Assembly: GCA_028824555.1 (NCBI GenBank)
Contig: JAPPDJ010000123.1
Coordinates: 1 to 42,546 of the forward strand
Reading direction: 5' to 3'
Source of the DNA: Gammaproteobacteria bacterium
GTDB taxonomy: Bacteria > Pseudomonadota > Gammaproteobacteria > Pseudomonadales > Azotimanducaceae
Length of the DNA stretch: 42,546 nucleotides
Positions 943 to 42,382 of this stretch are shown here, piece by piece (the stretch's first letter is position 1; every line of letters starts with the position of its first letter). The translations under genes and the position numbers were made by a program. The notes under the pieces are model-generated. The model did not search any database. It was given only the letters and a program-made list of their open reading frames with translations, and was not told the origin of the DNA.

Positions 943-989
943 GACCCAGAAAACCTGCAAACGACAAAACGAGAACGAAACCAGCCGCC

Positions 990-2339: not shown

Positions 2340-2359
2340 GCCCCGTAGGGGCGGGGCTT
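2338..2359 (+). terminator. Hairpin at the MFS stop codon
   Basis: AAGCCCC at 2338-2344 pairs perfectly with GGGGCTT at 2353-2359, and the left arm includes the last two bases of the MFS stop codon TAA. There is no T-run after it, so it is terminator-like rather than a clear intrinsic terminator. The core CCCCGTAGGGGCGGGG is a short form of the CGTAGGGG repeat family seen at 17527, 27859 and 36385. Confidence 0.45.
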
Positions 2360-2389
2360 GCGTTGTGGCGCGGTGTTGGGGCGTTCAGA

Positions 2390-27945: not shown

Positions 27946-27967
27946 AAATGATATGTTGTAACATCTC
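27945..27967 (+). promoter_or_regulatory. Zur-like operator
   Basis: The 23-bp site reads GAAATG-ATATGTTGT-AACATCTC. It is partly symmetric (GAnATGnTA ... TAnCATnTC) and close to the gammaproteobacterial Zur box built on GAAATGTTATA and its complement. It lies 35-57 bp before the start of the small CxxC gene. It is notably AT-rich for the region. The downstream receptor resembles ZnuD, a zinc receptor regulated by Zur in other bacteria, which fits. No second site was found upstream of the paralogous module at 39826. Confidence 0.65.
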
Positions 27968-28001: not shown

Positions 28002-28295
28002 ATGACAAGCGTGGCACCAAGACCAAGGCAGGGGTTGCAGCGGTGGGTTTCCGTTGCCGCAGTGGTGCTGTGCATTGGGCACTCGGTTGCGGACACGCAC
28101 GTAGACGTCGGTAAGGACGAAGAGGAGGTCTGTGCGGTCTGTGCAATCTCCGAACCGGGTCACGTTGCGGAGGTTGCCCTCTTTGACGCGCGACCGTCCG
28201 CATGGCGCCGGTGCGGCAACCTGCCGTTGGCTTCGGCCACCGTTTCTGCCCGCCCCTACGAGGTCCCCCACCCCCGCGCCCCACCCATCTCCTGA
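28002..28295 (+). CDS. Small exported CxxC protein, first copy
   Basis: The 97-residue protein has a hydrophobic segment at about 14-29 (signal peptide or anchor), then H33, an acidic stretch, C44-A-V-C47, and a C-terminal P-H-P-R-A-P-P-I-S. The same order (His, acid residues, CxxC, PRAPP near the end) occurs in the protein at 39826. I do not know a firm function. It faintly resembles small metal-related proteins of the DUF2946 kind, but this is from memory and was not checked. It is 66 bp ahead of a ZnuD-like receptor and just behind the Zur-like site, so a role in metal delivery or sensing is inferred. The ATG at 28002 is preferred because earlier in-frame sequence lies in the operator and repeat. 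Confidence 0.65.
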   Translation: MTSVAPRPRQGLQRWVSVAAVVLCIGHSVADTHVDVGKDEEEVCAVCAISEPGHVAEVALFDARPSAWRRCGNLPLASATVSARPYEVPHPRAPPIS

Positions 28296-28312
28296 CCGCG
28301 ACAGTATCGAGT

Positions 28313-28336
28313 GCGCAACCCTCCCAGGCGTTGCGC
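28313..28336 (+). other. Hairpin with a nearby T-run between the CxxC gene and its receptor
   Basis: GCGCAAC at 28313-28319 pairs perfectly with GTTGCGC at 28330-28336. A run of six T lies at 28346-28351, just before the receptor's GGAG ribosome binding site. The 9-nt gap between stem and T-run is too long for a standard intrinsic terminator, so it may only lower read-through or protect the message. Confidence 0.4.
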
Positions 28337-28361
28337 CTGTTCGTGTTTTTTGGAGATGCAC

Positions 28362-30575
28362 ATGAATCGCATGCAACGAATCTTGCTGGGCGCAGCGGCC
28401 TGCCTCGGTGTCGCCGTGACAGGCGCGCAGGAAGCCACGGAACAACCGGAAATCGAGGAAGTCATCGTCACGGCGCACCCGCTCGGAGAAGAAGGACTCG
28501 CGCAGGCGAGCGATGTGCTAACGGACGACGAACTCGAACGCAAAATGGTGGACACCATCGGTGCTACCGTCGGCAACGAGCCGGGCATCCACAACAGTGC
28601 CTATGGCGTGGGTGCGGGCCGCCCCGTCATTCGCGGCCTCGGCGGGGCGCGCGTGCGCATCATGGAAGAACAGATCGACACGCTAGACGTTTCCGTCAGC
28701 AGCGGCGACCACGCGGTCACGGTGGACCCCTTCCTCGCCGAGCGGGTGGAAATCCTGAAGGGTTCGGCAACGTTGCTCTACGGCTCCGGCGCCATCGGCG
28801 GCGTGGTCGATGTCCACACCGGCCGTATTCCGAGCGAAGTGCCGGAGCGCATCCACGGCACCCTCGACGTGCGCGGCTCGGACAACGGCAGCGGCAAGAA
28901 CGGGAGCTTCCGGCTCGACGGCGGCAGCGGCAACGTTGCATGGCACGTTGACGCCTTCTCCCGCGAGTCCGACGACTATGACATTCCCGGCTTCGCCGAG
29001 TCCGCGGCCCTGCACGCCGCGGAAGGGCACGACGAGGAAGGGCACGGGCACGAGGAAGAAGGCCACGACGAGGACGAAGACCACCACGACGAGGAGGACC
29101 ACCACGACGAGGAAGGGCACGAGGAGGAGGAAGAAGCCTTCGGAACCGTGCCCGGCAGCGCCTCCGAGACCCGCGGCGGTTCCGTCGGCTTTTCCTTCGT
29201 CGGCGATCGCGGCTTCGGCGGCATCTCCATCAGCGGTCTCGACTCCGAGTACGGCATCCCCGGCCACAGCCATGCCCACCACGAGCACGACGATCACGAA
29301 GAAGAGGGGCACCACGACGAGGAAGAGCACCACGACGACGAGGAAGAGCACGCTCACGAAGAGCACGACGACCACGAAGACGAAGACGATCACGGCGAGG
29401 AGAGCCCTCCCGTCGTCGTCCTCGAGCAGACACGCATCGATCTGGAAGCTGGTCTTGCGGACCCGTTCGACGGCTTCGAGAGCCTGAGCCTTCGCCTCGG
29501 CATCAACGACTACGAACACGTGGAAAACGAGGCCGGCGAGGTCGGAACGGCCTTCTCGAACAGCGCCTGGGAAGGGCGCGCGGAACTGACCCACGAGCCG
29601 ATGGGCGGCTGGCGTGGCGCCCTCGGCATGCAACTCGGCAACCGCGAGTTCTCCGTCGCCGGCGAAGAGGCCTTCACGCCGCCCGTTGACACCTCATCGA
29701 GCGGCTTCTTCTGGGTCGGCGAGCGCTCCGTCGGCGACCTCGGTCTCGAGGCAGGGGTGCGCTACGACCGCGTCGAACACACTCCCGCAAACGGCCAGAG
29801 CCGCGACTTCGGCGGACTCAGCGCTTCGATGGGCCTCATCCTGCCGTTCAGCCCGAGCTGGCAGGGCAGCCTGCTGGCCGATTACTCGTCCCGTGCGCCG
29901 GTGGGCGAGGAGCTCTTTTCCGATAGCCCGCACCCCGGTACGGGCGTCTACGAGATCGGCGATCCGAACCTCGACACCGAGCAGGCCCGCAATCTGGCCG
30001 CGACCCTCACCGGCGGTGGCGACGGCTGGTCCTTGGTCGGAACGACCTACTACACGAGCTTCGCCGGCTTCATCTACCAGGCCGCGACGGACGAGGAGCG
30101 GGAAGGCTTCGACGTGCGCCGCTACTCCCAGGACGACGCCACGTTCACCGGCTTCGAGGTGGAAGGCCACGTCACCGTCGCCGAGTGGGGCATCGGAACG
30201 CTCGACCTCGGCGCCTTCTACGACATCGTGTCGCCGGAAATCGACGTTTCCGGAAACGACAACCTGCCCCTCATGCCACCCTCCCGCGTCGGCCTCTCCC
30301 TAGAGTTCAGGGGCAACCGCCTGCGCGCCAACGTGGACTACATCCGGGCTTCCGAACAGGACGACGTGGCGGAGTTCGAACTGCCAACGGAGTCCTACGA
30401 CGACCTCCGCGCCCGCATCGCGTGGCGCTTCCGCCCGGGCGAAAGCACGGTCGACCTGTTCCTCGCCGGCCGCAACCTCACCGACGACGAACAGCGCCTG
30501 CACACCTCGGTCGTCAAGGACATGGTGCCGCAACCAGGCCGCACGGTAGAAGCGGGATTGCGCATGCGCTTCTAG
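28362..30575 (+). CDS. ZnuD-like TonB-dependent receptor with His/Asp/Glu-rich stretches, copy 1
   Basis: The 737-residue product has a signal peptide (about 1-22), a TonB-box-like EEVIVTAHP at about 29-37, and a plug domain with GRPVIRGLGGARVRIMEEQIDTLDVS and YGSGAIGGVVDVHTGRIP, which are close to ZnuD zinc receptors. Two tracts made almost only of His, Asp, Glu and Gly lie at about 219-258 and 301-347, in predicted barrel loops. The C-terminus ends in ...AGLRMRF. It most likely imports zinc or another soft metal through the outer membrane, powered by TonB. GGAG at 28352-28355 supports the ATG at 28362. The module order is small CxxC gene then receptor. Confidence 0.85.
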   Translation: MNRMQRILLGAAACLGVAVTGAQEATEQPEIEEVIVTAHPLGEEGLAQASDVLTDDELERKMVDTIGATVGNEPGIHNSAYGVGAGRPVIRGLGGARVRIMEEQIDTLDVSVSSGDHAVTVDPFLAERVEILKGSATLLYGSGAIGGVVDVHTGRIPSEVPERIHGTLDVRGSDNGSGKNGSFRLDGGSGNVAWHVDAFSRESDDYDIPGFAESAALHAAEGHDEEGHGHEEEGHDEDEDHHDEEDHHDEEGHEEEEEAFGTVPGSASETRGGSVGFSFVGDRGFGGISISGLDSEYGIPGHSHAHHEHDDHEEEGHHDEEEHHDDEEEHAHEEHDDHEDEDDHGEESPPVVVLEQTRIDLEAGLADPFDGFESLSLRLGINDYEHVENEAGEVGTAFSNSAWEGRAELTHEPMGGWRGALGMQLGNREFSVAGEEAFTPPVDTSSSGFFWVGERSVGDLGLEAGVRYDRVEHTPANGQSRDFGGLSASMGLILPFSPSWQGSLLADYSSRAPVGEELFSDSPHPGTGVYEIGDPNLDTEQARNLAATLTGGGDGWSLVGTTYYTSFAGFIYQAATDEEREGFDVRRYSQDDATFTGFEVEGHVTVAEWGIGTLDLGAFYDIVSPEIDVSGNDNLPLMPPSRVGLSLEFRGNRLRANVDYIRASEQDDVAEFELPTESYDDLRARIAWRFRPGESTVDLFLAGRNLTDDEQRLHTSVVKDMVPQPGRTVEAGLRMRF

Positions 30576-30592
30576 GCTCACCTCCGGTAAAC

Positions 30593-30627
30593 GGCACGAC
30601 CGCCCCTCGTTGGGGGGCGGCCATGCC
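30593..30627 (+). terminator. Hairpin downstream of the first ZnuD-like receptor
   Basis: GGCA at 30593 pairs with TGCC at 30624-30627, enclosing CCGCCCC paired with GGGGCGG around a short loop. It follows the receptor stop by 17 bp. It is GC-rich with no T-run, so it is a probable, not certain, transcription end. Confidence 0.5.
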
Positions 30628-30692
30628 AAGGGAGCTTTGGGCGAGGTGCGTCCCTACCCGCGCCCGTGGCCGTCCACGCCAGCACGTTGGCT

Positions 30693-30720
30693 TTGACGGC
30701 GATACCGTATCCGGTATCGT
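30693..30720 (+). promoter_or_regulatory. hicAB promoter and palindromic operator
   Basis: A -35 box TTGACG lies at 30693-30698 and a -10-like TATCGT at 30715-30720, spaced 16 bp. Between and over them is the perfect palindrome GATACCG-TATC-CGGTATC (30701-30718), with 7-bp arms. Its position would let HicB, a DNA-binding antitoxin, block RNA polymerase. Transcription would start about 7 nt after the -10, which is at the hicA ATG itself (30727). No ribosome binding site precedes hicA, so its mRNA may be leaderless. Confidence 0.6.
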
Positions 30721-30726
30721 ACACAA

Positions 30727-30966
30727 ATGGTGCGCGCGGCAAAACTACTCGACGCTATGCGGGCCAATCCGCGGGCAGATTGGACGCCAGAGAATGTTCG
30801 GACCGTAGCTCGTGCACATGGGTTGACAATGCGCCAACGCGGGACGAGCCATGCCGTCCTGACGAACAAGCTCGGTAGGCACCTGACTGTGCCGATGCAC
30901 AAGCCCATCAAGCCCGTTTACATCAGGCAACTGGTGGAACTCGTGGAGGAAACTGATGAAGTTTGA
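30727..30966 (+). CDS. HicA-type mRNA interferase toxin
   Basis: The 79-residue protein has the double-stranded-RNA-binding-like HicA fold. The sequence RQRGTSHAVLTNKLGRHLTVPMHKPIKP places catalytic H42 after G-T-S, as in other HicA toxins, followed by the (V/T)-V-P-x-H-x-x-x-x-x-P pattern. It is slightly longer than usual, with an N-terminal helix. The gene overlaps hicB by 11 bp. It probably acts by cleaving mRNA when HicB is lost. Confidence 0.9.
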   Translation: MVRAAKLLDAMRANPRADWTPENVRTVARAHGLTMRQRGTSHAVLTNKLGRHLTVPMHKPIKPVYIRQLVELVEETDEV

Positions 30967-31291
30967 GGACTATGCGATCAATGTGAATCCCCTTCCTACC
31001 GAGGAAGGCGGTGGCTTCTTGGCGAGCATTCCGGACCTGCCGGGCTGCGTCGCCGACGGTGCGACGATCGATGAAGCGATCTCCGAGGCCCGCGATGCGT
31101 TCGCCGCCTGGACGATGGCCGAACGCGAGGACAAGGGCGAGTTGCCGCGGCCGAAGACTTACAGCGGCCAGTTCCTGCAGCGCATCCCGAAGACGCTGCA
31201 CATGAGACTAGCCCATCGAGCAGCGACCGAGGGCGTCAGTCTGAACCAGCTCGCCGCGACATTCCTCGCCGAAGGGCTGGCGAGCCGATAG
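30956..31291 (+). CDS. HicB-type antitoxin
   Basis: The 111-residue protein has the partial RNase H-like HicB core, with EEGGGFLASIPDLPGCVADGATIDEAISEARDAF at about 16-49 (the family G-x-x-x-x-x-P-D-L-P-G-C). A C-terminal ribbon-helix-helix-like segment LHMRLAHRAATEGVSLNQLAATFLAEGL follows. It neutralises HicA and likely represses the palindrome at 30701-30718. GGAGG at 30945-30949 precedes its ATG inside hicA. Confidence 0.92.
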   Translation: MKFEDYAINVNPLPTEEGGGFLASIPDLPGCVADGATIDEAISEARDAFAAWTMAEREDKGELPRPKTYSGQFLQRIPKTLHMRLAHRAATEGVSLNQLAATFLAEGLASR

Positions 31292-31401
31292 CGCTTGAAG
31301 CGGTTTCAACCGTAGCGGATCGTCGGTTCTGGCGCCCGCGTCGAACCAGCATAGCCCTGGGTCAATCACACCGACGACACGTGCCGGAGGCACGGAACTG
31401 C

Positions 31402-31424
31402 TGACAGGAAGGCCCCTCCTGTCA
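31402..31424. terminator. Hairpin shared by the convergent hicB and moeB ends
   Basis: TGACAGGA at 31402-31409 pairs perfectly with TCCTGTCA at 31417-31424, and the right arm includes the moeB stop codon. It lies between two converging genes, so it may stop transcription from both sides. There is no T-run on either strand. Confidence 0.45.
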
Positions 31425-32171
31425 CCCCCCGGCCGAGCAAGTTGGGCAGGTTGGGTCCTTCGGCAGGCGGAGTTTGCGCCATTCCATGCGCAGAGCGTCT
31501 AGGTAGAGGACATAGCCGGCGAGGGATTCACCGGCATTGGTGACGAGTTTCATGGCTTCCATTGCTTGGATGCAGCCGATGATGCCAACCACTGGAGCGG
31601 CAACGCCGTTTTCGGCGCAGTTGAGGGCTTCGTCGCTGCCGTCGCGGTAAAGGCAGCGATAGCAGGGGGCGTCTTCGACGCGGGAGTCGAAGACGGCGAC
31701 TTGGCCTTCCATGCGGATGGCGGCGCCGGAAACCAAGGGCGTCCTTGCGGCGACGCAGGCGTCGTTGATGGCATAGCGGACGAGGAAGTTGTCGGTGGCG
31801 TCGAGTACCACGTCCACCTCGCTTGCCAATTGCCGGAGCTCGTCGCCTTCGAGCTTGCGCGGGAGGGTGCGAACGTTGGTCTCGGGATTGAGACGAGCGA
31901 TGCGCTCGGCGGCGGACGCCACCTTGGGGCTGGCGATGGCGTCTTCGGTGTGGACGATCTGGCGCTGCAGATTGGATGCGTCGACGACATCGTGGTCCAC
32001 CAAGGTGAGAGAACCGAAGCCGCAGGCGGCGAGATAGAACGCGACTGGGGAGCCGAGGCCGCCGAGGCCTATGATGGCCGCGCTGGCGCCCAGAATCGCT
32101 TCCTGACCGGCGACGTCGATCTCCGGCAGCATGATCTGGCGGCTGTAGCGCAGCAGTTCGTCGTCGTTCAT
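31422..32171 (-). CDS. moeB: MoeB/ThiF-type adenylyltransferase
   Basis: The 249-residue E1-like enzyme has the nucleotide-binding GLGGLGS motif (residues 35-41), the LVDHDVVDASNLQRQIVH segment (57-74), the catalytic DATDN motif (124-128), and two zinc-binding pairs C170-Y-R-C173 and C242-P-T-C245. It activates the C-terminus of a small sulphur-carrier protein (MoaD or ThiS) with ATP. Its place after prmC fits moeB. Whether the partner is MoaD or another carrier cannot be told. ATG 32171 overlaps the prmC stop (ATGA). Confidence 0.9.
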   Translation of the reverse strand: MNDDELLRYSRQIMLPEIDVAGQEAILGASAAIIGLGGLGSPVAFYLAACGFGSLTLVDHDVVDASNLQRQIVHTEDAIASPKVASAAERIARLNPETNVRTLPRKLEGDELRQLASEVDVVLDATDNFLVRYAINDACVAARTPLVSGAAIRMEGQVAVFDSRVEDAPCYRCLYRDGSDEALNCAENGVAAPVVGIIGCIQAMEAMKLVTNAGESLAGYVLYLDALRMEWRKLRLPKDPTCPTCSAGG

Positions 32172-33013
32172 GGCGCGCGGCCACAGCTGACCCGGTCGTG
32201 CCCGGCGAGGTCCCGAACGCAAGTCACGTCCTCGAGCCCAGCGATCTCGAACAAAGCTCCAACGGCGTTCGCCTGATCGAAGCCGTGTTCGAGCACGAGC
32301 CAGCCGTCCCGGCTCAAGTGCGCGGGGGCGGCGTCGACGATGCGGGCGATGGTGGCGAGGCCCCCCACCAAGGCATGGCGTGGCTCGAAGCGCAGGTCCC
32401 CACGCGTCAGGTGGGGGTCGTCCGGCTCGATGTAAGGCGGATTGGTAACCACGGCGTCGAACTTCCCGGACACGCCGCAGAAGGCGTCTGCGACGCGGGT
32501 CTGCACGCGCAGTCCAAGTGCTTCGGCATTGCGTTTGGCAACCTCGATGCAGTCCCGGTCGATGTCGGTGGCGAGCACCTGCGCGTTTGGACGTTCACTC
32601 TTGACGGCGAGGGCGACGCAGCCGGAGCCGGTGCCGAGATCGAGCACGCTGGCGTCGTCGCCAATGCGCTCTAGAGCGGCTTCCACCAGCGTCTCGGTGT
32701 CGGGGCGTGGAATGAGGACCCGCGAGTCCACGGCAACCTCCAAGCCCCAGAACTCGCGCTGGCCGACAATGTACGCCACGGGCTCGCCCTGCATGCGCCG
32801 TTCCACCCAATGGGCAAGGCAACTGCAAGCTGCGGCCGGCACCGGTCTTTCCGGGAAGGCATGGAGGTGGGCTCGGGTGATGCCCAAGGCAGCGGCGGTT
32901 AGCGCATCGGCATCCACTCGCGACAACCTTGCGCGGGCGAACGCCGCACACGCGCCCACGCTTCCGAGCGGACTCGGGCATTCCTCCAAAGCCGCCGCCG
33001 CCACGATGGTCAC
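32168..33013 (-). CDS. prmC: Release-factor glutamine N5-methyltransferase
   Basis: The 281-residue enzyme methylates the GGQ glutamine of release factors. It has the SAM-binding DLGTGSG (125-131), the diagnostic N191-P-P-Y194, and the N-terminal helical domain that binds the factor. It lies directly downstream of its substrate gene prfA. The start is GTG 33013 in a GTGA overlap with the prfA stop. A GTG at 33004 is possible but less likely. Confidence 0.95.
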
Positions 33014-34158
33014 GCCTCGCCCATCGCCCGCAAGGCGTCCGCCTGGCGTTCTTGCCTCAGCGGCTGGATCAACTGGTCCAGTTCGCCCGACATCACGTCG
33101 GTCAGCGAATGCAGCGTCAGGTTGATGCGGTGGTCGGTGACCCGCCCCTGGGGGAAGTTGTAGGTGCGGATCTTCTCGGAACGGTCGCCGGAACCCACCT
33201 GCGTGCGGCGTTCGGCGGCCTGCTCCGACTTCTGCTTCTCCTGCGCCGCGTCGAGCAGTCGCGCCCGCAGGAGCTGCATGGCGCGGGCGCGATTCTTGAG
33301 TTGCGAGCGTTCGTCCTGACACTCCACCACGATCCCCGTGGGCAGGTGGGTGAGGCGCACGGCCGAATCGGTCTTGTTGACATGCTGGCCGCCGGCGCCG
33401 GAGGCGCGAAACGTGTCCACGCGAAGCTCGTCGCGGGCGATTTCCACCTCGGTGACTTCATCGATGTCCGGCAGCACCGCCACCGTGCAGGCGGAGGTGT
33501 GGATGCGGCCCTTTGCTTCGGTTTCTGGGACCCGCTGCACCCGATGGATGCCGGATTCGTAGCGCAGGCTGCCGTACACCGCTTGGCCCTCGACGCCGAG
33601 AACCACTTCGCGAAAGCCGCCTTGCTCGCCGGCACTTTCGGCGAGGGGGCGCAGGCGCCAGCCACGGGCATCGGCATAGCGGGCGTACATGCGATAGAGG
33701 TCACCGGCAAAGAGCGCCGCCTCGTCCCCGCCGGTGCCGGCGCGGATTTCGAGAAAGACGTTGCTGTCGTCGCGTTCGTCCTTGGGAATCAGCAGCGTCT
33801 TCAGTTCGGCAGCCGAGACGCGCATCTTGTCGCCAATCTCGACCATGTCGTCGCGCGCAAGTTGGCGCAGTTCCTCGTCGGGATCGTCGGCCAGGCTCTG
33901 CGCCTCGGCAAGGTCCTCCTCCAGGCGACGATAGGCGGCGAAGGCTTGCACGACGGGCGTGCGCTCGGAGAACTCCCGCGACAGTGCCGCAAACCGCTGC
34001 CGGTCGTTGACCACCTCGGCCTCGCCCAGGAGATGAGCCAGCTCCTCCTGACGCTCGTCAAGTTCCTCGAGCTTGCGGCGCAAAGAGTCGGCAAGGGCCG
34101 GCGTCGTCTCACGCCCCCGCGTGGCGCGTGGCTCCAACGCTTTCGCTGACGTGGCCAT
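33010..34158 (-). CDS. prfA: Peptide chain release factor 1
   Basis: The 382-residue factor ends translation at UAA and UAG. It has the stop-reading P211-E-T213 (PxT) segment in [16 protein letters not shown] and the catalytic G256-G-Q258. The coiled helical domain 1 is at the N-terminus. About 20 residues at the start are extra compared with E. coli; the ATG at 34158 with GAAGG upstream is still the best start. It follows hemA by 9 bp, as in many gammaproteobacteria. Confidence 0.96.
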
Positions 34159-34167
34159 GTCGCACCT

Positions 34168-35481
34168 TCAGGAAGAATAGTGCTCGCGCAGCCACGCAAG
34201 GACGGCCTCGTCCTCGTGTGCGCTTGCCTGGCGGATGGCCACCGTGGGCCGGTGCAGGAGCTTGTTGGTAAGGTCTGCGGCCAGCCGTTCCATGATCTGG
34301 TCGGGTTCCTGGCCGGCATCGAGCCGCCGCCTTGCCGCCGCGAGCGCCGCGTCGCGCAGTTCCTGCGCCTCGGCGCGGTATTGGCGCAGCACCGCTTGGC
34401 CGGCGCGCATGCGGCGCTCGCGGGCGTATTCCGCAGTGCCTTGCGCCACCAGTTGCTCCGCCTCGGCGGCGGCGCTTTCACGACCTGCAAGGTTTTCGCC
34501 GATGATCTCGGTCAGGTCGTCGATGGAGTAGAGATAGACATCGGAAAGCTCTCCCACTTCCGGCTCGATGTCTCGGGGCACGGCGATGTCCACCATGAAC
34601 ATCGGGCTGTGCCGCCGCCGCTTGACGGCGCGCTCCACCGTACCCTTGCCAATCACCGGCAGAGGGCTCGCGGTGGAACTCACGACGATGTCGAACTCGG
34701 CGAGCCGGTCGGCAACGCTGGTGAGAGGCATGGCATCGCCGCCCAATCGGGTTGCCAAGGCGCTCGCGCGCTCGAGCGTGCGATTGGCAACGCTGATGGC
34801 CGTGATGCCAGCCCGCTGCATGTGCTGCGCCACCAAGTCGATGGTCTCGCCGGCGCCGATCAGGAGCGCGTGGGCGGAACCGAGGTCTGCGAAGATGCGC
34901 CGCGCCAGGGTGACGGCCGCATAGGCAACCGAGACTGGGTTCCGGCCGATTGCCGTCTCGGTGCGCACGCGCTTGGCGATGCGCAGGCTCGTCTCCACCA
35001 TGAGGCCGAGTTCCGAACCCACGGTGCCCGTCTCGCGGGCGCTCTCGTAGGCGACCTTCACCTGGCCCATGATCTGCGGCTCGCCGAGCACTTGCGAGTC
35101 GAGGCCGGAGGCGACACGCATCATGTGCCAAGCCGCTTGCTCGTCCCGATGCACATAGGCGACCTCCCGCAGCCGCTCGGGCTCGAGGCCGCTCGCCTCG
35201 GCCAGCCACCGCCCCACGAGAGGCAGTGGTGCGAGGGCGTGGCCGTTGGCTGTGGCCGAACCGTTGCTGGCCGAGACGGGAACCTCGGCGACGGCGTCGC
35301 TGAGGACGCAGTAGATTTCGGTGCGGTTGCAGGTGGAGAGGATGACCGCTTCGGTGACGTCCGGTGTCTTGTCTGAGAGCGCTTTCAGGGCAGCCGGCAG
35401 GTCCGACTCCGCAAACGCCACCCGTTCGCGCAGATCGATTTGAGCGGTGCGATGATTCAGGCCAAACGCCAGAATGGGCAT
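34168..35481 (-). CDS. hemA: Glutamyl-tRNA reductase
   Basis: The 437-residue enzyme makes glutamate-1-semialdehyde from Glu-tRNA for haem and sirohaem synthesis. It has C51 in VILSTCNRTEIYC (the thioester Cys), the GLDSQVLGEPQIMGQVK segment (about 113-129), the NADPH domain with LLIGAGETIDLVAQHM (about 180-196), and the dimerisation helix at the end. The ATG at 35481 begins MPILAFGLNHRTA, the family N-terminus. An upstream in-frame extension is not family-like. It is divergent from lolB with overlapping 5' ends, so the two share a promoter region. Confidence 0.95.
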   Translation of the reverse strand: MPILAFGLNHRTAQIDLRERVAFAESDLPAALKALSDKTPDVTEAVILSTCNRTEIYCVLSDAVAEVPVSASNGSATANGHALAPLPLVGRWLAEASGLEPERLREVAYVHRDEQAAWHMMRVASGLDSQVLGEPQIMGQVKVAYESARETGTVGSELGLMVETSLRIAKRVRTETAIGRNPVSVAYAAVTLARRIFADLGSAHALLIGAGETIDLVAQHMQRAGITAISVANRTLERASALATRLGGDAMPLTSVADRLAEFDIVVSSTASPLPVIGKGTVERAVKRRRHSPMFMVDIAVPRDIEPEVGELSDVYLYSIDDLTEIIGENLAGRESAAAEAEQLVAQGTAEYARERRMRAGQAVLRQYRAEAQELRDAALAAARRRLDAGQEPDQIMERLAADLTNKLLHRPTVAIRQASAHEDEAVLAWLREHYSS

Positions 35482-36112
35482 GGCGACGCTTGTGGGAGCC
35501 GAACGGCTCGAATCCGACGTGGACAAACATCATAGCATTGTGGGCGCTTTCGCCGCCCGGGCCAGCGCGTGGCTCGTGTGCCTCGTGATGGTGGTGCTGG
35601 CCGGGTGTGCCGGACGCGCGCCAATGCCGGATCAGGGGATGGAGGATCTGGTCTTTCGCGTGGAAGGCAAGATCAGCGTGCGGGGTGCTGGCGGGGGGGC
35701 TTCGGCGTCGTTCGTCTGGTGGCAACGACCGGGTTCCTACGAGGTGGAGTTCTGGGGGCCACTGGGGAGTCAGCGCACACGAATCCAAGGCGATGAAGGT
35801 GCCTTCGCCATCATCGATGCGACCGGAAAGCGAATTGCAGGTGCCGATCCTGAAGCACTCATGCAGCGGGAGTTGGGTTGGTCTGTGCCCGTTGCCGTGC
35901 TGTCGCATTGGATTCGGGGCGCACCGTCGCCGGCATTGCCTTGGCAGACACCATCGCACGACAGCGCCGGCCGTTTCGTGGCATTCGAGCAGGCTGGGTG
36001 GCAGGTGGAGGTGCTCGCATGGGGCGAGCAGGCGATGCCGGCCCGCATTCGCGCCGAGCGTGGCCGCGACCGCATCGTGGTAGCTTGCAGGAGTTGGAGT
36101 TTCGGGGCGTGA
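35474..36112 (+). CDS. lolB: Outer-membrane lipoprotein receptor LolB
   Basis: The 212-residue product has a lipobox LAGC near residue 45 after a hydrophobic stretch. The mature part matches LolB: DLVFRVEGKISVRG, then YEVEFWGPLGSQRTRIQGDEG, and the LSHWIRGAP segment. LolB receives lipoproteins from LolA at the outer membrane. The ATG at 35474 overlaps the hemA start by 8 bp; GTG at 35540 would give a normal-length signal peptide and is a real alternative. It is usually followed by ispE and prs, which are absent here. Confidence 0.88.
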   Translation: MGMATLVGAERLESDVDKHHSIVGAFAARASAWLVCLVMVVLAGCAGRAPMPDQGMEDLVFRVEGKISVRGAGGGASASFVWWQRPGSYEVEFWGPLGSQRTRIQGDEGAFAIIDATGKRIAGADPEALMQRELGWSVPVAVLSHWIRGAPSPALPWQTPSHDSAGRFVAFEQAGWQVEVLAWGEQAMPARIRAERGRDRIVVACRSWSFGA

Positions 36113-36387
36113 CGGCGGAGGCTGTGGCAAGGCTACCGGAAAGAGTGTGCATGGCTGCTGCGGCCCTCTTCGCCTCGGCGCTGCTGTCGTCCTGCGCCGA
36201 AGTCGGCTACGCCGTGCTGCAGGAGCCGGACACGCCGCATGCCCGCTCCCAATGCGACGCGATCCACAACCGCACCCTGCGCGAACGCTGCCACGCACGC
36301 ATCGTTCCGCCCTTTGAGGACTACGTGCAGCAACGCGAGGACTTGGCCGAGTCCATCCGCAAGGAGCAACGCGAAAAACCCCCGTAG
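36109..36387 (+). CDS. Small putative lipoprotein
   Basis: The 92-residue protein has a signal peptide with lipobox L-S-S-C (Cys near residue 29) and a short mature part with a CDAIHNRTLRERCHARIVPPFEDY segment, two Cys and many charged residues. It starts at GTG 36109, overlapping the lolB stop (GTGA), with GGAG upstream. The C-terminal KPP and the TAG stop come from a CCGTAGGGGCGGG repeat. Function is unknown; a cell-envelope role is inferred from the lipobox and the lolB context. Confidence 0.6.
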   Translation: MTAEAVARLPERVCMAAAALFASALLSSCAEVGYAVLQEPDTPHARSQCDAIHNRTLRERCHARIVPPFEDYVQQREDLAESIRKEQREKPP

Positions 36388-36437
36388 GGGCGGGACTTGC
36401 CCCCCACCCACATTGAACCCACCGATCGGCTCGGCAC

Positions 36438-36623
36438 GGGCCCTTTGGAGGGAAGGCATTCTGCCAACGCGCCCGAAGGGCGCGCCCCTAGCGCCGATAG
36501 GCGCTTTCTGTGCAAGAGGGCGTGCAGGGAAGGCCCATCCATCTGCGCCAACGGGCGAGGCCCCATCGAGCCAAGCGCGCTGACGCGCGCTAGGGAAGGC
36601 AGGATGCCTTCCCTCCGAAGGCC
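36438..36623. repeat. MITE-like element, left flank of the LLM gene
   Basis: The ends carry GGAGGGAAGGCATTCTGCC and an inverted GGCAGGATGCCTTCCCTCC. Inside are ACGCGCCCGAAGGGCGCG and AGCGCC-GATA-GGCGCT hairpins. The first about 63 bp are nearly identical, in the same orientation, to the element at 37695. Its right part differs from that copy. Confidence 0.75.
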
Positions 36624-36664
36624 CATCCTTGCCCAAGCGCTAGTGCCCCGTATGGGCGGGGCGG

Positions 36665-37588
36665 TCAATTCAAAGCCGCCACCTCCGGCAGCACCTCCTC
36701 GATCAACCGCCGCGTTTGCCGCATCATCTCGTCGGCGCCATTCGCGATGGGCCTCAGGATGAACTTGTGCGCGCCAGCCGAATGGAAGCCCCTCAAGAGC
36801 CCCATGATTTCCTGGGCCCCGCCCACAGCCGTGAACGCATCCGGCGGCTGCCCCATGCCGCGGGTGAAGCCGTCGATGTAGCGCCGCATGATGGGTTCGT
36901 CCGGGCTGCCGAAGCGGAACCCAAAACCGGCACCGAAATGATCCTCATCGATGCTGCGACCGAGTTCGGCAGCGCGGGCCTTGATCGCCCGCACCACCGG
37001 GCCAACATTCCCGGCCGAGGCAATGCCGGCCTGCCAGCCCGTGCCCCAGCGCGCCGTGCGCTCGATGGCTTGTTTGGCGCTTCCGCCAACCCAAAGCGGC
37101 AACGGGCTTTGCACCGGGCGGGGCGAAATCGACGCCGAGTCGAGCCGAAAATGCTCGCCCTCAAACGTCACCGCCTCTTCCACCCACAGCCGCGACATGA
37201 TCTGCATCGCCTCGTCCATGCGCTTGCCGCGCCGACGCGTGGCGATGCCGGTGGCGGTGTAGTCGCGCGAGCGCGTGCTGCCGAGGCCAAACGCCGGCAG
37301 CAGGCGACCGTCTGACAGCACGTCGATGGTGGCGCACTGCTTGGCGGTGAGCACCGGATCGCGCAGCCCCAGGCTCGCCACGTTCATGCCGAATTTGATG
37401 TGCTTGGTGGCGCCGGCGAGCGCGGCCATCACGCTCATGCATTCGAGGTTGGGGTCGCGGCTGATGAGTCGGTCGGACTGCCAGATGGAGTCGATGCCGC
37501 CGGCCTCGCACAAGTCCACCCAGCGCCAGAACCCACGCGCATCCTCGAACGGAAAGTTGGCGATGCCGATGCCGGCGCTGATGGTCAT
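36665..37588 (-). CDS. LLM-class flavin-dependent oxidoreductase
   Basis: The 307-residue protein has the luciferase-like TIM-barrel pattern: GIGIANFPF at the start, WVDLCEAGGIDSIWQSDRL (about 22-40), IKFGMNVASLGLRDPVLTAKQCATIDVLSDGRL (about 64-96), GLGSTRSRDY and PLPLWVGGSAKQAIERTARWGTGW (about 162-185). Such enzymes use FMN or F420. The substrate is unknown. The gene lies between two same-orientation copies of one palindromic element, 36438 and 37695. No neighbours suggest a pathway. The ATG at 37588 fits the family start. Confidence 0.85.
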   Translation of the reverse strand: MTISAGIGIANFPFEDARGFWRWVDLCEAGGIDSIWQSDRLISRDPNLECMSVMAALAGATKHIKFGMNVASLGLRDPVLTAKQCATIDVLSDGRLLPAFGLGSTRSRDYTATGIATRRRGKRMDEAMQIMSRLWVEEAVTFEGEHFRLDSASISPRPVQSPLPLWVGGSAKQAIERTARWGTGWQAGIASAGNVGPVVRAIKARAAELGRSIDEDHFGAGFGFRFGSPDEPIMRRYIDGFTRGMGQPPDAFTAVGGAQEIMGLLRGFHSAGAHKFILRPIANGADEMMRQTRRLIEEVLPEVAALN

Positions 37589-37694
37589 GGGTTCAAACCT
37601 CGTCCTTGGCCGCGGTTGGCGGGGCGGCATTATCGCCCTACGAGTTTCCATCCCGCCGAGGACGCCGAGTCTGACCTGCGAGGAACAGGCTTGA

Positions 37695-37833
37695 AGGGCC
37701 TCGGAGGGAAGGCATTCTGCAAACGCGCCCGAAGGGCGCGCCCCTAGCGCCGACAGGCGCTTTTCCACCTGCCCCAATGAAACAGGTGCGCTGGCGCGCA
37801 CCGGAAGGCAGAATGCCTTCCCTCCGAGGCCCT
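37695..37833. repeat. MITE-like element, right flank of the LLM gene, perfect 26-bp ends
   Basis: Bases 37695-37720 and 37808-37833 are exact inverted repeats of 26 bp (AGGGCCTCGGAGGGAAGGCA...). The interior carries ACGCGCCCGAAGGGCGCG, AGCGCC-GACA-GGCGCT and a third stem CAGGTGCGC...GCGCACC. The first part matches the element at 36438 in direct orientation. Confidence 0.8.
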
Positions 37834-37891
37834 CACTTCGAATCAAATCGTCTAAGCATCAAGGTGTTACGCGTTCTCCTCCATGGAAAGC

Positions 37892-38752
37892 TCAGCCGTA
37901 GAAACGGCGCGGCGCTTGCGGCTCGGTTCCGGTCCAAGCGTCTCGAAGTCGGTCGCCCAGGATGTTGAGTGCGAACAGGGTCAATGCCAGCAATGCGGCG
38001 GGGAACAGCAGCTGCCACGGCGAGGAGTGCATGTTGCGGGCGCCCTCGGCGATCAGCATGCCCCAGCTCGTGCGCGGCTCCTGCACGCCGAGCCCCAGGA
38101 AGCTGATGAAGCTCTCGGCGATGATGACGCCGGGAATCGTGAGTGTGGCATACACCACCGCCGGGCCGATGACATTGGGGATGATGTGCCGGAGGATGAC
38201 CCGCGAGCGGCCGGCACCGAGCGCCCGGGCGGCATCGACATAGGCTTCGTGCCTCGCGGCGAGCGTCTGGCCGCGCACGATGCGGGCGATGTCGAGCCAC
38301 GACACGGCGCCCAAGGCCACGAACAAGAGCAGGATGTTGCGGCCAAACGCCACCACCAAGAGGATCACCAGCAACACGAAGGGCAAGGCATACATGCCAT
38401 CCACCACCCGCATCATGGCCTGATCCGCCGCGCCGCCCAGATAGCCGGCGGCGGCACCCCAAGGAATGCCGATCAAGGTGCTCACCAAGGTCGCGAGCGC
38501 AGCAATCGCGAGCGAAGTGCGGGCTCCGTCAAGCGTGCGGGCGAAGAGGTCACGCCCGATGCCATCGGTGCCGAACCAATGCACGGCGTTCGGGGCTTGG
38601 TCGATGGCGTCCCAGTCGATTTCGTCCGCCGGCCAGGGCGCGAGCCAAGAGCCCGCCAGCGCTCCCCCAACGACCACCAACAGCACGACCACACAGCCGC
38701 TCGACAGTTTCGTGCCGAAAAATGTCCTACGCATGAAGAGCGCCCTACGCAT
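37892..38752 (-). CDS. ABC transporter permease, OppC/DppC type
   Basis: The 286-residue membrane protein has an N-terminal helix (about 17-37), the N-terminal DppC-like HWFGTDGIGRDLFARTLDGARTSL signature (about 58-81), and the EAA loop EAYVDAARALGAGRSRVILRHIIPN (about 167-191), which contacts the ATPase. The segment IAESFISFLGLGVQEPRTSWGMLI is also typical. It overlaps the OppB gene by 8 bp. No solute-binding protein or ATPase is present, so the transported peptide, nickel or other solute cannot be told. Confidence 0.9.
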   Translation of the reverse strand: MRRALFMRRTFFGTKLSSGCVVVLLVVVGGALAGSWLAPWPADEIDWDAIDQAPNAVHWFGTDGIGRDLFARTLDGARTSLAIAALATLVSTLIGIPWGAAAGYLGGAADQAMMRVVDGMYALPFVLLVILLVVAFGRNILLLFVALGAVSWLDIARIVRGQTLAARHEAYVDAARALGAGRSRVILRHIIPNVIGPAVVYATLTIPGVIIAESFISFLGLGVQEPRTSWGMLIAEGARNMHSSPWQLLFPAALLALTLFALNILGDRLRDAWTGTEPQAPRRFYG

Positions 38753-39662
38753 GGCGAATACGCGGGTCCAGCCGCGAATAGCTCACGTCCACGAGAAAGT
38801 TGAACGTCAGCACCAGCCCCGCATAGACGATCACCGTGCCCATCACCAGCGTGTAGTCGCGGTTCAGCGCCCCTTGCACGAAATAGCGGCCGAGGCCGGG
38901 CAGCGAAAACACCTCCTCCACCACCATGGACCCCGCCAGCAGTGCCGCAGCCGCAGGGCCCAGGAACGAAAGCACCGGCAGCGCCGCCACCGGCGCTACA
39001 TGGCGCAGGAAGATGCGCTGCCCCGGCAACCCCTTGGCCCGAGCCGTCCGCACATGGGGCCTCGCCAATGCCTCGATGACGCCACCGCGCGTTAGCCGGG
39101 CGAACGCAGCCGCAAAGGGCAGCCCAAGCGCCACCGCCGGCAACAGGTAATGCACTGCCGTGTCGTTGCCGCCGGCCGGCAGCCAGCGCAGCGTGACGGC
39201 GAAGACCAGCACCAGCACGGGTGCGACGATGATGGGCGGAAAGGCAAGCCCCGCCGTCGCCAGCAGCGCCACCGCCCGATCGCTGGGCCGATCTCGATGC
39301 CAGCCGGCCCACGCGCCGGCGGCAATGCCCACGCCCAGCGCAAACGCAAGAGCCACGCCGCCCACGGCCAGACTCACCGGCAAGCCGCGCCCGAGCAGCT
39401 CGTTCACGGAGAAGTCGCGCTGCCGAAACGACGGTCCCAAGTCGCCGCGCAGAACCGACGTCACATAGCGCAGGTATTGACGCGGCAGCGATTCGTCCAA
39501 ATGGTAGGCGGCACGAAGATTCGCCTCCACCGCCGGCGGCAAGGGCCGTTCCCCGTCGAACGGCCCGCCCGGTGCCAGCCGCAGCAGGAAGAACGTCACC
39601 GAAACCACCGCCCAAGCCGTCACCAAGGCAAACAGCAACCGACGAAGTACGAATCGCGCCAT
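38745..39662 (-). CDS. ABC transporter permease, OppB/DppB type
   Basis: The 305-residue membrane protein has the N-terminal MARFVLRRLLFALVTAWAVVSVTFFLLRLAPGGPF segment and the DPxxxLPxQYxRYV-like DESLPRQYLRYVTSVLRGDLGPSF of OppB permeases. The EAA loop (ARPHVRTARAKGLPGQRIFLRHV, about 209-231) follows, and EEVFSLPGLGRYFVQGALNRDY is close to the end. Six membrane helices are expected. It forms a pair with the following OppC gene. The ATG at 39662 begins the first helix; earlier residues are not family-like. Confidence 0.9.
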   Translation of the reverse strand: MARFVLRRLLFALVTAWAVVSVTFFLLRLAPGGPFDGERPLPPAVEANLRAAYHLDESLPRQYLRYVTSVLRGDLGPSFRQRDFSVNELLGRGLPVSLAVGGVALAFALGVGIAAGAWAGWHRDRPSDRAVALLATAGLAFPPIIVAPVLVLVFAVTLRWLPAGGNDTAVHYLLPAVALGLPFAAAFARLTRGGVIEALARPHVRTARAKGLPGQRIFLRHVAPVAALPVLSFLGPAAAALLAGSMVVEEVFSLPGLGRYFVQGALNRDYTLVMGTVIVYAGLVLTFNFLVDVSYSRLDPRIRHA

Positions 39663-39825
39663 CGCACCCTGCACGCCAAATGCGAGCGTCGAAGCATAAA
39701 TCGGGCCAAGCGGCGGCCCCTTCAAGGGCGCGCGGAACGCCGCTCAAGCGCGACAGATTGCCCGGCGCCAGCAAGAGCGCTCGCCCGGGCGCAGCCCGGT
39801 AGCGATGGTGGTATAAAGGCGCGTC

Positions 39826-40101
39826 ATGCCGACGACCCGACTTCCCGGGGCCTCTCTTGTGCACGCCGCCATGGTGTGTGCGGCGCTGGCTCTGGTCACG
39901 GACGTCACGGGCGCCCACCTCCACTTCGACGAGGAGTGCGCGCCCTGCATCATGGTGGAGGCAGACGGCACGTCCGAGCTGTCTGCCACCTCCGATCGCC
40001 CCGTCTTCGCCAACTCGCGGCCCGTCGAGGCCTGCGCCAACAGTGCATTGACGCTGTCGCAAGCCTCGCATCAGCCCCGAGCACCCCCAATCCTCCCCTA
40101 A
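39826..40101 (+). CDS. Small exported CxxC protein, second copy
   Basis: The 91-residue protein has a hydrophobic segment (about 10-25), H31 and H33, an acidic FDEE, C38-A-P-C41, and a C-terminal Q-P-R-A-P-P-I-L-P. It parallels the 28002 protein in order and spacing, while most other residues differ. AAGG lies 7 nt before the ATG, and TATAAA at 39812-39817 could be a -10 box. It precedes the second ZnuD-like receptor by 73 bp. Function unknown; see the first copy. Confidence 0.6.
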   Translation: MPTTRLPGASLVHAAMVCAALALVTDVTGAHLHFDEECAPCIMVEADGTSELSATSDRPVFANSRPVEACANSALTLSQASHQPRAPPILP

Positions 40102-40174
40102 CTGCCAACGCGGTGCGTCGCGCCGCCTTTGGAGCATTCGAGCTTCACCGAAGAGCCGTAGCTAGGAGGAACAC

Positions 40175-42382
40175 ATGAAGGGGTTTGGACACGTGACCGT
40201 CACCGCGGTCGTGGCGTGGGCAGGGGTTGCCTTCGCCGAGGAGGCAGGCCGTTCAGAAGCCGCCGAGGCGCCGGGCGTTGAGGTGATTGAGGTTCAAGCC
40301 CACCCACTCTCGGGTGAAGGCCTGGCGGACACCACCACGATCGTCGAGGGCGAGGAACTGCGGCGCAGCGCGGAACCGAGCATCGGCGCGACGCTCGACG
40401 GGGAAGCGGGCATCCACACATCCTCGTTCGGACAGGCTGCCGGGCGTCCCGTCGTGCATGGCCTCGGCGGCGCCCGCGTGCGGGTGATGGAAGACCGCAT
40501 CGACACGATGGATGCGTCGGTGACCAGCCAAGACCACCCCACCACGGTAGAGCCCTTCATCGCCGACCGCGTCGAAGTGCTGAAGGGCCCGGGCACTCTG
40601 CTGTACGGTTCCGGTGCCATCGGCGGTGTCGTGGACGTTCACACCGGGCGCATCCCGCACACGGTGCCGGACGGCATCCAAGGCCGTGCGGAACTGCGCG
40701 CCAGCGACAACGGCGAACGTCAGACTGGCGCTGTCCGCTTGGACGGCGGCGGCAACGGCTTTGCCTGGCACCTCGATGCCTACACCCGCGATGCCGGCGA
40801 GTACGACATCCCAGGCTTCGCCGAGTCTGCGCGACTGCGAGCGATGGAGGAGCATGACGAGCACGAGCACGACGACCATGAAGGCGAAGATCACGACGAG
40901 GATGCCGAAGAGCATCACGAAGACGAGGAAGATCACGACGAGCACGAGGAAGAAGAGGAAGCCTACGGCCACGTTCCGGGCAGCCAGCTCGAAATGTCCG
41001 GCGGCGCCTTGGGCGCATCGTTCATCGGCGAGCGCGGCTTCGCCGGTGTCGCCATCAGCACCAATCGTGCCCTGTTTGGCCTTCCCGGCCACAGCCACGC
41101 GCACCACGACCATGAGGAAGAGCACCACGACCACGAGGACGAGCACGCCGAGGACGAAGACGAACACGAGGGCGAACACGAAGACGAGGATGAGCACCAC
41201 GAGGAGGAAGAAGGCAATCCCACGCTGGATCTGGAACAGACCCGCATCGATGTGGAAGTAGGCCTGCGCGACCCCTTCGCCGGCTTCTCAGCCCTCAACT
41301 TCCGCATGGGCAAGAACGACTACGAACACGTCGAGCTCGAACCCAACGGCGAATTGGGCACCCGGTTCCAGAACGAAGCCTACGAAGGGCGCATTGAACT
41401 CGTGGACGACGACATGGGCGCCGGCAGCGTGTTCGGCCTGCAGTTTTCCGGCCGCGACTACTCCATCTCCGGCGCGGAGGCGTTTGTTCCGCCGACCCAA
41501 TCCGACTCGTTCGCCGCCTTCTGGGTGGGCCAGTTCGCCCTTGAAGGCGTGGACATGGACGCCGGCGTCCGCCTCGGCCGCGTGACGCACGACTCGCGTG
41601 TGCATTCGAGCGAGGACTTCACGCCGTGGTCGGCCTCGGTCGGCGTCTTCATCCCCACGGAATCGGAATGGCAGATTGGCTTCCGCGCAGACATCTCAAG
41701 CCGCGCCCCGGTGATCGAGGAGCTGTTCTCGAACGGGCCCCACCTCGCCACGCAGTCGTTCGAGGTGGGGGACCCCGGCCTCGGTGCCGAACGCGCCACC
41801 AACCTCTCCGCCACGCTGAGCCGCAGCACGGAACGGTTTTCGGTCCACGCCACGGCCTATCGCAACGGTTTCGCCAACTTCATCTATCAGCAATGGACTG
41901 GCGAGGAAGAGGACGAGCTTCCCGTGGCCGTCTACGCCCAAGACGACGCCTCGTTCGTGGGGCTCGATCTCACAGTCGAGTACAAATGGCTCGAGTTCGA
42001 CAATGGCGACGTGTCGCTCAAGCTGATGTACGACGTGGTGGATGCGGAGCTCGACATCTCCGGCAACGGCAACATGCCTCGCCTGCCGCCATCTCGCATT
42101 GGCCTCGGCATCGACGGCAACTGGGGCGATCTCACCGCTTCGCTCGACTACCGCCGGATGGGCGACAGCGATGACGTGGCAGTGAACGAGTTGCCCACGG
42201 ACGGCTTTACGGACGTGCGCGCCTACATCGGTTACCGGCTGCCGGCGGCGCAGGGCCTCGAGGTCTTCCTCCAAGGCCGCAACCTCACCGACGAAGAACA
42301 GCGTGAGCACGTCTCGGCGATCAAGGACTTGGCCCCGCTGCCAGGCCGAACCCTCGAGGCGGGCGTCCGCATCCGCTTCTAG
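40175..42382 (+). CDS. ZnuD-like TonB-dependent receptor with His/Asp/Glu-rich stretches, copy 2
   Basis: The 735-residue product is a paralogue of the receptor at 28362. It has a signal peptide (about 1-21), plug motifs GRPVVHGLGGARVRVMEDRIDTMDAS and YGSGAIGGVVDVHTGRIP, and His/Asp/Glu-rich tracts at about 224-263 and 305-347 in the same loops. The C-terminus ends in ...AGVRIRF. AGGAGG at 40164-40169, 5 nt before the ATG, is a strong ribosome binding site. The role is likely outer-membrane uptake of zinc or a related metal. No Zur-like site was seen upstream. Confidence 0.85.
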   Translation: MKGFGHVTVTAVVAWAGVAFAEEAGRSEAAEAPGVEVIEVQAHPLSGEGLADTTTIVEGEELRRSAEPSIGATLDGEAGIHTSSFGQAAGRPVVHGLGGARVRVMEDRIDTMDASVTSQDHPTTVEPFIADRVEVLKGPGTLLYGSGAIGGVVDVHTGRIPHTVPDGIQGRAELRASDNGERQTGAVRLDGGGNGFAWHLDAYTRDAGEYDIPGFAESARLRAMEEHDEHEHDDHEGEDHDEDAEEHHEDEEDHDEHEEEEEAYGHVPGSQLEMSGGALGASFIGERGFAGVAISTNRALFGLPGHSHAHHDHEEEHHDHEDEHAEDEDEHEGEHEDEDEHHEEEEGNPTLDLEQTRIDVEVGLRDPFAGFSALNFRMGKNDYEHVELEPNGELGTRFQNEAYEGRIELVDDDMGAGSVFGLQFSGRDYSISGAEAFVPPTQSDSFAAFWVGQFALEGVDMDAGVRLGRVTHDSRVHSSEDFTPWSASVGVFIPTESEWQIGFRADISSRAPVIEELFSNGPHLATQSFEVGDPGLGAERATNLSATLSRSTERFSVHATAYRNGFANFIYQQWTGEEEDELPVAVYAQDDASFVGLDLTVEYKWLEFDNGDVSLKLMYDVVDAELDISGNGNMPRLPPSRIGLGIDGNWGDLTASLDYRRMGDSDDVAVNELPTDGFTDVRAYIGYRLPAAQGLEVFLQGRNLTDEEQREHVSAIKDLAPLPGRTLEAGVRIRF

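Follow-up and report, generated by a model that had tools for sequence, protein, structure and literature searches.

The closest described relative of the system treated here is CruR (bp2923, a DUF2946 protein), an upstream open reading frame (ORF) of Bordetella pertussis that controls the TonB-dependent receptor BfrG/CrtA. In the available parts of the report on it (PMC9426467), copper sensed through a CxxC motif relieves a translational arrest at a RAPP motif three residues before the protein end, and Rho then terminates transcription; the CxxC-RAPP spacer of 45 residues tolerates one or two extra residues but not five. The metal response is reported as retained without the export segment. 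The arrest at RAPP was shown in vitro in PMC12992588, whose accessible sections, like those of PMC9426467, treat RAPP as an arrest motif, name RAPP and RGPP as the arrest-prone forms, and describe leaders with these motifs as enriched upstream of TonB-receptor genes. Here we analyse a 42,546-nucleotide stretch of gammaproteobacterial DNA (contig JAPPDJ010000123.1, family Azotimanducaceae; hereafter the window, contig 164 of 182 in a 4.2-Mb genome) that carries two modules, each made of a small ORF followed by a gene for a ZnuD-like TonB-dependent receptor. From the sequence evidence below, we think it likely that each small ORF is a metal-responsive arrest-peptide leader that senses zinc and, by stalling ribosomes at RAPP, frees the Shine-Dalgarno sequence of its receptor gene.

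Other described systems share parts of this arrangement. CutF, from the cutFOG operon of Rhodobacter capsulatus, is likewise an exported leader with a proline-rich C-terminus, a metal motif and a stem-loop over the next Shine-Dalgarno sequence, but it carries CxxxC, its target is a multicopper oxidase, copper turns expression on, and in the parts of the paper available stalling is not directly seen (PMC9973294). Because an uptake gene is controlled in our window, the sign of control is expected to be opposite to that of CutF. The same sections of PMC9973294 allow for members without copper specificity, mention nickel and cobalt in this connection, and call CzcI, which precedes czcCBA, CutF-like and a suggested metal-sensing regulator. 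In Caulobacter, the DUF2946 gene CC2720 heads the Zur-activated czr zinc efflux operon (PMC4176598). CC2720 and CzcI are alike in placing a DUF2946/CutF-like gene first in a zinc-related operon; they differ from our modules in serving efflux and not uptake, CzcI is without the C-terminal proline motif, and for CC2720 the available part of PMC4176598 proposes no leader-peptide role. Other arrest peptides also end a small leader in RAPP or RGPP before a regulated gene (PMC10987492, PMC12992588, PMC10951233, each as far as available), but the best-studied of them monitor Sec/YidC. The word "zinc" is absent from the main texts of PMC9426467, PMC9973294, PMC10987492 and PMC12992588, and the literature we searched yielded no zinc-responsive arrest peptide. 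An earlier note on this DNA, made from the sequence alone, knew of no described system pairing such genes; in kind this was mistaken, since CruR upstream of BfrG/CrtA is one (PMC9426467, in the part available). Given the precedents of CC2720, CutF/CzcI and the RAPP leaders of TonB receptors, zinc leaders would extend a known type of control and not constitute a wholly new one; what is probably new is a zinc variant of CruR/CutF-type leader control, a kind demonstrated so far for copper.

Both modules lie on the forward strand with the same gene order, as the earlier note had it. In module 1, an ORF of 97 codons (28002..28295) encodes a hydrophobic export-like segment, a histidine in an HVD sequence, an acidic run, CxxC, a 44-residue spacer, and RAPP (codons CGC GCC CCA CCC, 28275..28286) followed by IS and the stop; after a gap of 66 nucleotides comes receptor 1 (28362..30575, stop included), with its ATG at 28362 and its frame open already from a GTG at 28311. 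In module 2, an ORF of 91 codons (39826..40101) encodes a hydrophobic export-like segment, HLH, CxxC, a 43-residue spacer, and RAPP (CGA GCA CCC CCA, 40078..40089) followed by ILP and the stop; receptor 2 (40175..42382) begins 73 nucleotides further on. RAPP thus ends two and three residues before the stop, respectively. The two small proteins are 21% identical and have little in common except H, CxxC and RAPP, which agrees with the earlier description of them. Like CruR, they are small export-signal ORFs with CxxC, a spacer of about 44 residues and RAPP near the stop, each being the first gene before a TonB-dependent receptor. CruR differs in being copper-responsive and Rho-dependent, in its 162-nucleotide intergenic region and in its target, a CrtA-family receptor followed by PepSY_TM, whereas the window leaders precede ZnuD-like receptors across gaps of 66 and 73 nucleotides and have a conserved histidine before CxxC, a predicted anti-Shine-Dalgarno hairpin and no Pfam match to DUF2946.

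The pairing of leader and receptor recurs in relatives. We collected 30 receptor loci from the same family, 28 of them with enough upstream DNA, and looked for an upstream ORF with CxxC, 38-50 residues and RxPP near the stop. Such a leader is present in 19 loci and absent in 9; the opposite strand of the same 28 loci gave none, so the pairing is beyond chance. Of 150 same-family genomes, 82 have a related receptor; a profile built from 19 small proteins (A1) gave 72 matches, spread over 57 of the 150, with RAPP in 56 matches and RGPP in 7. A receptor related to the window's follows 59 of the 72, which bears out the earlier proposal that the small gene is tied to the receptor. The other 13 comprise four matches at contig ends (L094, L095, L099, L124); three followed by a porin-like and a ZnuA-type gene (L107, by Pfam and with an ABC-3 permease; L100 and L121, by reading); one before ZrgA (L117, by Pfam); three before a different TonB receptor with a PepSY_TM gene downstream (L071, by Pfam; L078 and L082); and L128 and L130, which have no RxPP and are probably chance matches. 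L129 likewise has no RxPP, yet a receptor is present there. In a further set of named loci chosen by their receptor and not by the leader profile, a leader occurs in 27 of 76, with 1 of 76 on the opposite strand; some of these loci are shared with the family set, and four further ones had too little upstream DNA.

Leaders of this kind also occur across the class. A second profile (A2) was built from 58 leaders; since six of these rows belong to other types (three porin/ZnuA-type, one ZrgA-type, two PepSY-type), it does not rest on ZnuD-type leaders alone. Its 91 matches, 88 of them outside the home genome, fall in 86 of 369 class-wide genomes searched. We read 60 loci, namely 59 of the 88 (best-scoring first, some skipped) and a weak third match of the home genome (G000:C172, E 0.0077), which has RHPP but no CxxC in range and which we take as chance. 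RAPP occurs in 48 of the 60 and RGPP in 7. A porin-like gene follows 45 leaders, a TonB receptor related to the window's (118-672 bits) follows 12, ZrgA follows one, and two are unassigned. Behind the porin-like gene comes a ZnuA-type gene in 41 of 45 loci; the remaining four loci end within 1.4 kb. Pfam confirmed ZnuA and ZrgA in examples. The earlier note had held that the association would fail if the small proteins sat mostly away from TonB receptors: they do not in the home family, whereas most of the class-wide loci read have the leader before the porin-like gene. In these loci (L318-L377) that gene encodes an outer-membrane protein of about 400 residues ('FNPAISLILDGRY'); the one example tested fell below the Pfam cut-off for Porin_4 and had no NCBIfam match, and the protein is possibly an uncharacterised zinc porin.

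These leaders have an export-like hydrophobic start, CxxC and RxPP near the stop, and the distance between the two motifs behaves like a ruler. Before measuring it we left out seven of the 72 home-family matches (L094 and L095, cut by contig ends; L111 and L118, with RAPP but no CxxC in range; and L128, L129 and L130) and nine of the 60 class-wide loci, leaving 65 and 51, or 116 leaders. Their CxxC-RxPP spacers average 43.8 residues (standard deviation 0.98), while the spacer sequence is near random, with a median pairwise identity of 9% among the 64 spacers of length 44. Profile selection can favour a fixed spacer length, which is why the receptor-selected named set matters: its 27 leaders have spacers of 41-45 residues though 38-50 were permitted. 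All 116 leaders have a histidine no more than 18 residues ahead of CxxC; 75 have it as HxH, where module 1 has HVD.

We then consider the junction between leader and receptor. In module 1, an arm at the end of the upstream ORF (CATCTCC, 28286..28292) is predicted to form seven perfect pairs with the Shine-Dalgarno region of receptor 1 (GGAGATG, 28352..28358); the pairing is present in the minimum-energy fold, whose z-score is -3.33 with none of 200 shuffles as good. In module 2, the codons after RAPP supply TCCTCC (40091..40096), predicted to form six perfect pairs with GGAGGA of receptor 2 (40165..40170; z -2.22, 7 of 200 shuffles as good). Masking the footprint of a ribosome stalled at RAPP raises the predicted unpaired probability of the Shine-Dalgarno region from 0.17 to 0.68 for receptor 1 and from 0.14 to 0.68 for receptor 2.

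The same feature is found in the home family. Removing three loci without a measurable spacer and three without a receptor start from the 59 receptor loci leaves 53 junctions, 46 of them with a gap of at most 127 nucleotides. Across these 46, the footprint pairs with the Shine-Dalgarno region at a mean of -10.1 kcal/mol, compared with -5.2 for other windows of the same leaders (p 1.8e-11), and in 27 it is among the top 5% of windows of its own leader. The tail is paired with a probability of at least 0.5 in 39 of 46. Mean accessibility climbs to 0.39 when the footprint is masked, compared with 0.18 both without a mask and under control masks; 39 of the 46 junctions show such a gain. The pairing peak is confined to offsets of 0 and +6 nucleotides from the third RAPP codon. 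With one near-duplicate removed, 45 loci entered a swap test, in which own partners paired better than exchanged ones (0 of 5000 permutations reached the observed mean); these loci have 42 distinct 5' arms, and their tails beat shuffled tails on average. Leaders heading porin/ZnuA genes show the pairing again (p 2.8e-10, from 40 scorable loci out of 45), and so, as far as its strength goes, do the class-wide ZnuD-type junctions (p 0.01, from 10 scorable loci out of 12).

The earlier note had seen in the small protein a functional partner of the receptor, perhaps a periplasmic metal handler. We replace this by a probable cis-acting regulatory ORF, because the spacer is conserved in length and not in sequence, RAPP lies just before the stop, and the last codons can pair with the ribosome-binding site of the next gene. 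In the mechanism that we favour, a ribosome translating the leader would stall at the C-terminal RAPP. At that point CxxC, 46-47 residues back, would presumably be just leaving the exit tunnel, and the histidine would, we assume, be about ten residues beyond it. Under zinc scarcity the stall would persist and the ribosome would cover the codons following RAPP, which otherwise pair with the receptor Shine-Dalgarno sequence; the receptor start would therefore be freed and the receptor made. When zinc is ample, it would bind His and CxxC of the nascent chain, whose folding or pulling would release the stall; the ribosome would end at the nearby stop, the hairpin would close and the receptor would be off. 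The proposal builds on the computed motif anatomy, the fixed spacer length, the potential for pairing and its position, the recurrence, the zinc-import neighbourhood and the operator described next; from these we infer the stall and zinc as its ligand, and we take the sign of control from CruR.

A predicted operator links module 1 to zinc. The near-palindrome GATATGTTGTAACATC (27950..27965, forward strand) lies 36 nucleotides before the small ORF and is the window's top match to a Zur-type matrix, at 22.9 compared with 9.1 for the next unrelated site; the matrix was made from sites of other genomes and other sites of the home genome. A search for exact dyads had been uninformative, and a palindromic expectation-maximisation search then found the operator. 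No Zur-type operator was found before module 2, where the best score is -2.8. The statement in the earlier note that such receptors are often Zur-regulated fits module 1 and not module 2, and the two copies could plausibly be controlled differently because module 2 is without the operator: in module 1 Zur would add transcriptional repression, and module 2 appears to depend on the leader alone. We examined six chosen genomes, five of them chosen because a leader there had the site. The operator pattern (at most two mismatches) matched in all six and a reversed control pattern in none, and 5 of the 14 FUR-family genes found there have a site no further than about 0.7 kb away. Zur is the best NCBIfam model for the two FUR-family genes tested, at 88 and 107 bits, below the cut-off of 167. 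One site of the home genome has on one side zur, with zinc ATP-binding cassette (ABC) genes behind it, and on the other a GTPase gene that we take to be COG0523-like; the ABC genes best match AztA and AztC, below cut-off, and the permease was named by eye. Similar sites adjoin zur-like and COG0523-like genes in the home genome and the chosen relatives. The downstream zinc-uptake genes and an operator shared with zur genes lead us to favour zinc as the metal sensed.

Two arrangements in relatives also involve these elements. In G062, a zur-like FUR gene (L196:6654-7130, forward strand) and the leader-receptor module are transcribed divergently, with some 0.6 kb between that gene and the module's operator. 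A TonB receptor gene of G145 (L203:7958-9946, reverse strand) resembles the PepSY-linked one of L071 and has a Zur-type operator about 100 nucleotides upstream (10044); there is no room for a leader ORF between operator and gene, and znu-like ABC genes, recognised by eye, lie about 7 kb off.

The receptors themselves resemble ZnuD. Both have Plug and TonB barrel domains, and for both the best NCBIfam model is ZnuD, matched over nearly the full length; their scores of 389.8 and 368.1 bits do not reach the cut-off of 950 bits for NF038289. The sole PDB match of receptor 2 at E<=1e-10 is ZnuD (4rdr, E 1.4e-63), a sequence relation across most of the receptor. The ZnuD type assigned earlier stands, with scores below that cut-off. 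ZnuD has histidine-containing loops, but the window receptors, unlike it, have two long acidic histidine tracts. These His/Asp/Glu-rich tracts lie at matching places, as first noticed: residues 218-259 (29013..29138) and 301-344 (29262..29393) in receptor 1, and residues 225-262 (40847..40960) and 305-346 (41087..41212) in receptor 2, all on the forward strand. What had been called a duplicated module is a pair of like modules that did not arise by recent local duplication. The receptors are 53% identical, and in a tree of 38 receptors they fall into separate clades with relatives from other genomes (local support 0.998 for module 1 and 0.966 for module 2), so they are old paralogues and a recent tandem duplication is ruled out. 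Elsewhere in the window, a HicB-like antitoxin gene (30956-31291) lies downstream of receptor 1, and a 1321-residue protein encoded at 818-4783 carries a beta-lactamase-type (serine hydrolase) domain at its C-terminus and also has PPC-like stretches that narrowly miss the Pfam cut-off.

Several observations weigh against a zinc-sensing leader acting through the hairpin. The Pfam model of CruR's family, DUF2946 (PF11162), gives no match to the two window proteins at E<=10 and reaches just 2 of 19 relatives (best E 0.051); we have accordingly dropped plain DUF2946 membership. Searched against the 150 family genomes, PF11162 matched 21 at E<=0.01, 8 of them above its cut-off, and none in the home genome. 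It does pick up four leaders immediately upstream of receptors (G005, G045, G084, G147), which places the leader group at the fringe of the family. When the PF11162 loci were re-read by script, CxxC and RxPP were found in 5 of 18. TonB receptors follow three of them, the porin-like gene follows one, and a gene of another kind follows the fifth (L133); these loci were kept out of all counts. At the junctions, the module 1 footprint ranks at 0.07 among its own leader's windows, 7 of 46 junctions have tail pairing below 0.5 and 7 of 46 show no gain upon masking, just 19 of 45 tails, taken singly, do better than shuffled versions at the 5% level, and the accessibility gain is not significant in the 10 class-wide ZnuD-type junctions (p 0.16). 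Because related loci share ancestry and are not independent, the p-values are optimistic. The leader is also not universal: 4 of 10 receptor-bearing genomes of the same genus, our own included, have no leader match, nor do 49 of 76 named ZnuD-like receptor loci (L238-L317) have a leader. Judging by genus names (Xanthomonas, Lysobacter, Luteimonas and kin), we take 32 of these 49 to belong to Xanthomonadales, and leader presence seems to follow lineage. Of the 65 home-family leaders, only about 15 have a clear operator by a matrix fitted to these same leaders; module 1 is one of them. Finally, the leaders of L071, L078 and L082 are very like that of module 1, yet they precede a TonB receptor and PepSY_TM, the layout of the copper CruR-CrtA operon (PMC12914433, in the part available). 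The leader alone therefore cannot tell zinc from copper.

These points bear on how the leader works and on what it senses. A CruR-type mechanism, in which the stalled ribosome blocks Rho, release lets Rho end transcription before the receptor, and the hairpin is incidental or secondary, is demonstrated for CruR itself (PMC9426467, in the part available), and the C-rich, G-poor leader ends (0.49 C and 0.20 G in module 1, 0.43 and 0.22 in module 2) would suit Rho and count against our own proposal. The gaps of 66 and 73 nucleotides are short beside the 162 of CruR, however, and a Rho mechanism does not need the pairing over the Shine-Dalgarno sequence that recurs at the stall footprint; we regard it as an unlikely explanation, although Rho and the hairpin could act together. 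Equally doubtful, in our estimate, is that copper or another metal is sensed and that the receptors take up a copper chelate or share no more than their shape with ZnuD. CruR and CutF do respond to copper (PMC9426467, PMC9973294, as far as available), and the PepSY_TM-linked leaders resemble module 1's, but in the loci read the downstream genes are mostly of zinc-uptake types (ZnuA, ZnuD-like, ZrgA), and the module 1 operator is common to zur, zinc-ABC and COG0523-like genes and is carried by the L071, L078 and L082 leaders as well.

The remaining explanations give the small protein or its stall another task. If the small protein were a stable, exported partner of the receptor that binds metal, this would account for the N-terminal export-like segment, the His and acidic residues, the CxxC and the position mostly beside uptake genes. 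It would leave unexplained a spacer of fixed length and near-random sequence, and C-terminal codons that pair with the next gene's ribosome-binding site; moreover, CruR is described as absent from proteomes and CutF as rapidly degraded in the available parts of PMC9426467 and PMC9973294, and we consider such a partner very improbable. We give slightly less credence still to a secretion or redox monitor, in which the stall senses export of the leader or its disulphide status. The export-like N-terminus would fit, and elsewhere RAPP peptides are found as monitors of Sec/YidC (PMC10987492) or, in some cases, in front of thiol-redox genes (PMC12992588, both as far as available); against this, the downstream genes that we read serve metal uptake and not Sec or Dsb functions, and none of the 116 leaders lacks the histidine in the 18 residues ahead of CxxC.

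Beyond the window, we lean, by a small margin of confidence, towards a family of zinc-sensing arrest peptides throughout Gammaproteobacteria, recognised by His, CxxC, the 44-residue ruler and RAPP/RGPP, that would unmask the Shine-Dalgarno sequence of the next gene beside or instead of Zur. As part of the same tentative claim, the zinc-uptake genes headed by the family would be of three or more unrelated kinds, among them ZnuD-like receptors, porin with ZnuA-type genes, and ZrgA. In bacteria, zinc control is mostly credited to repressors that bind DNA, Zur being one. If the proposal is true, the nascent chain on the ribosome would itself be a zinc sensor, forming a second, translational layer that reports zinc during translation, and metal-responsive arrest peptides would be extended from copper to zinc. 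It would also account for a group of small genes that neighbour genes of the ZnuD, ZnuA and ZrgA types, and it would provide a rule by which more may be sought: CxxC, about 44 residues, RxPP, and then an anti-Shine-Dalgarno arm.

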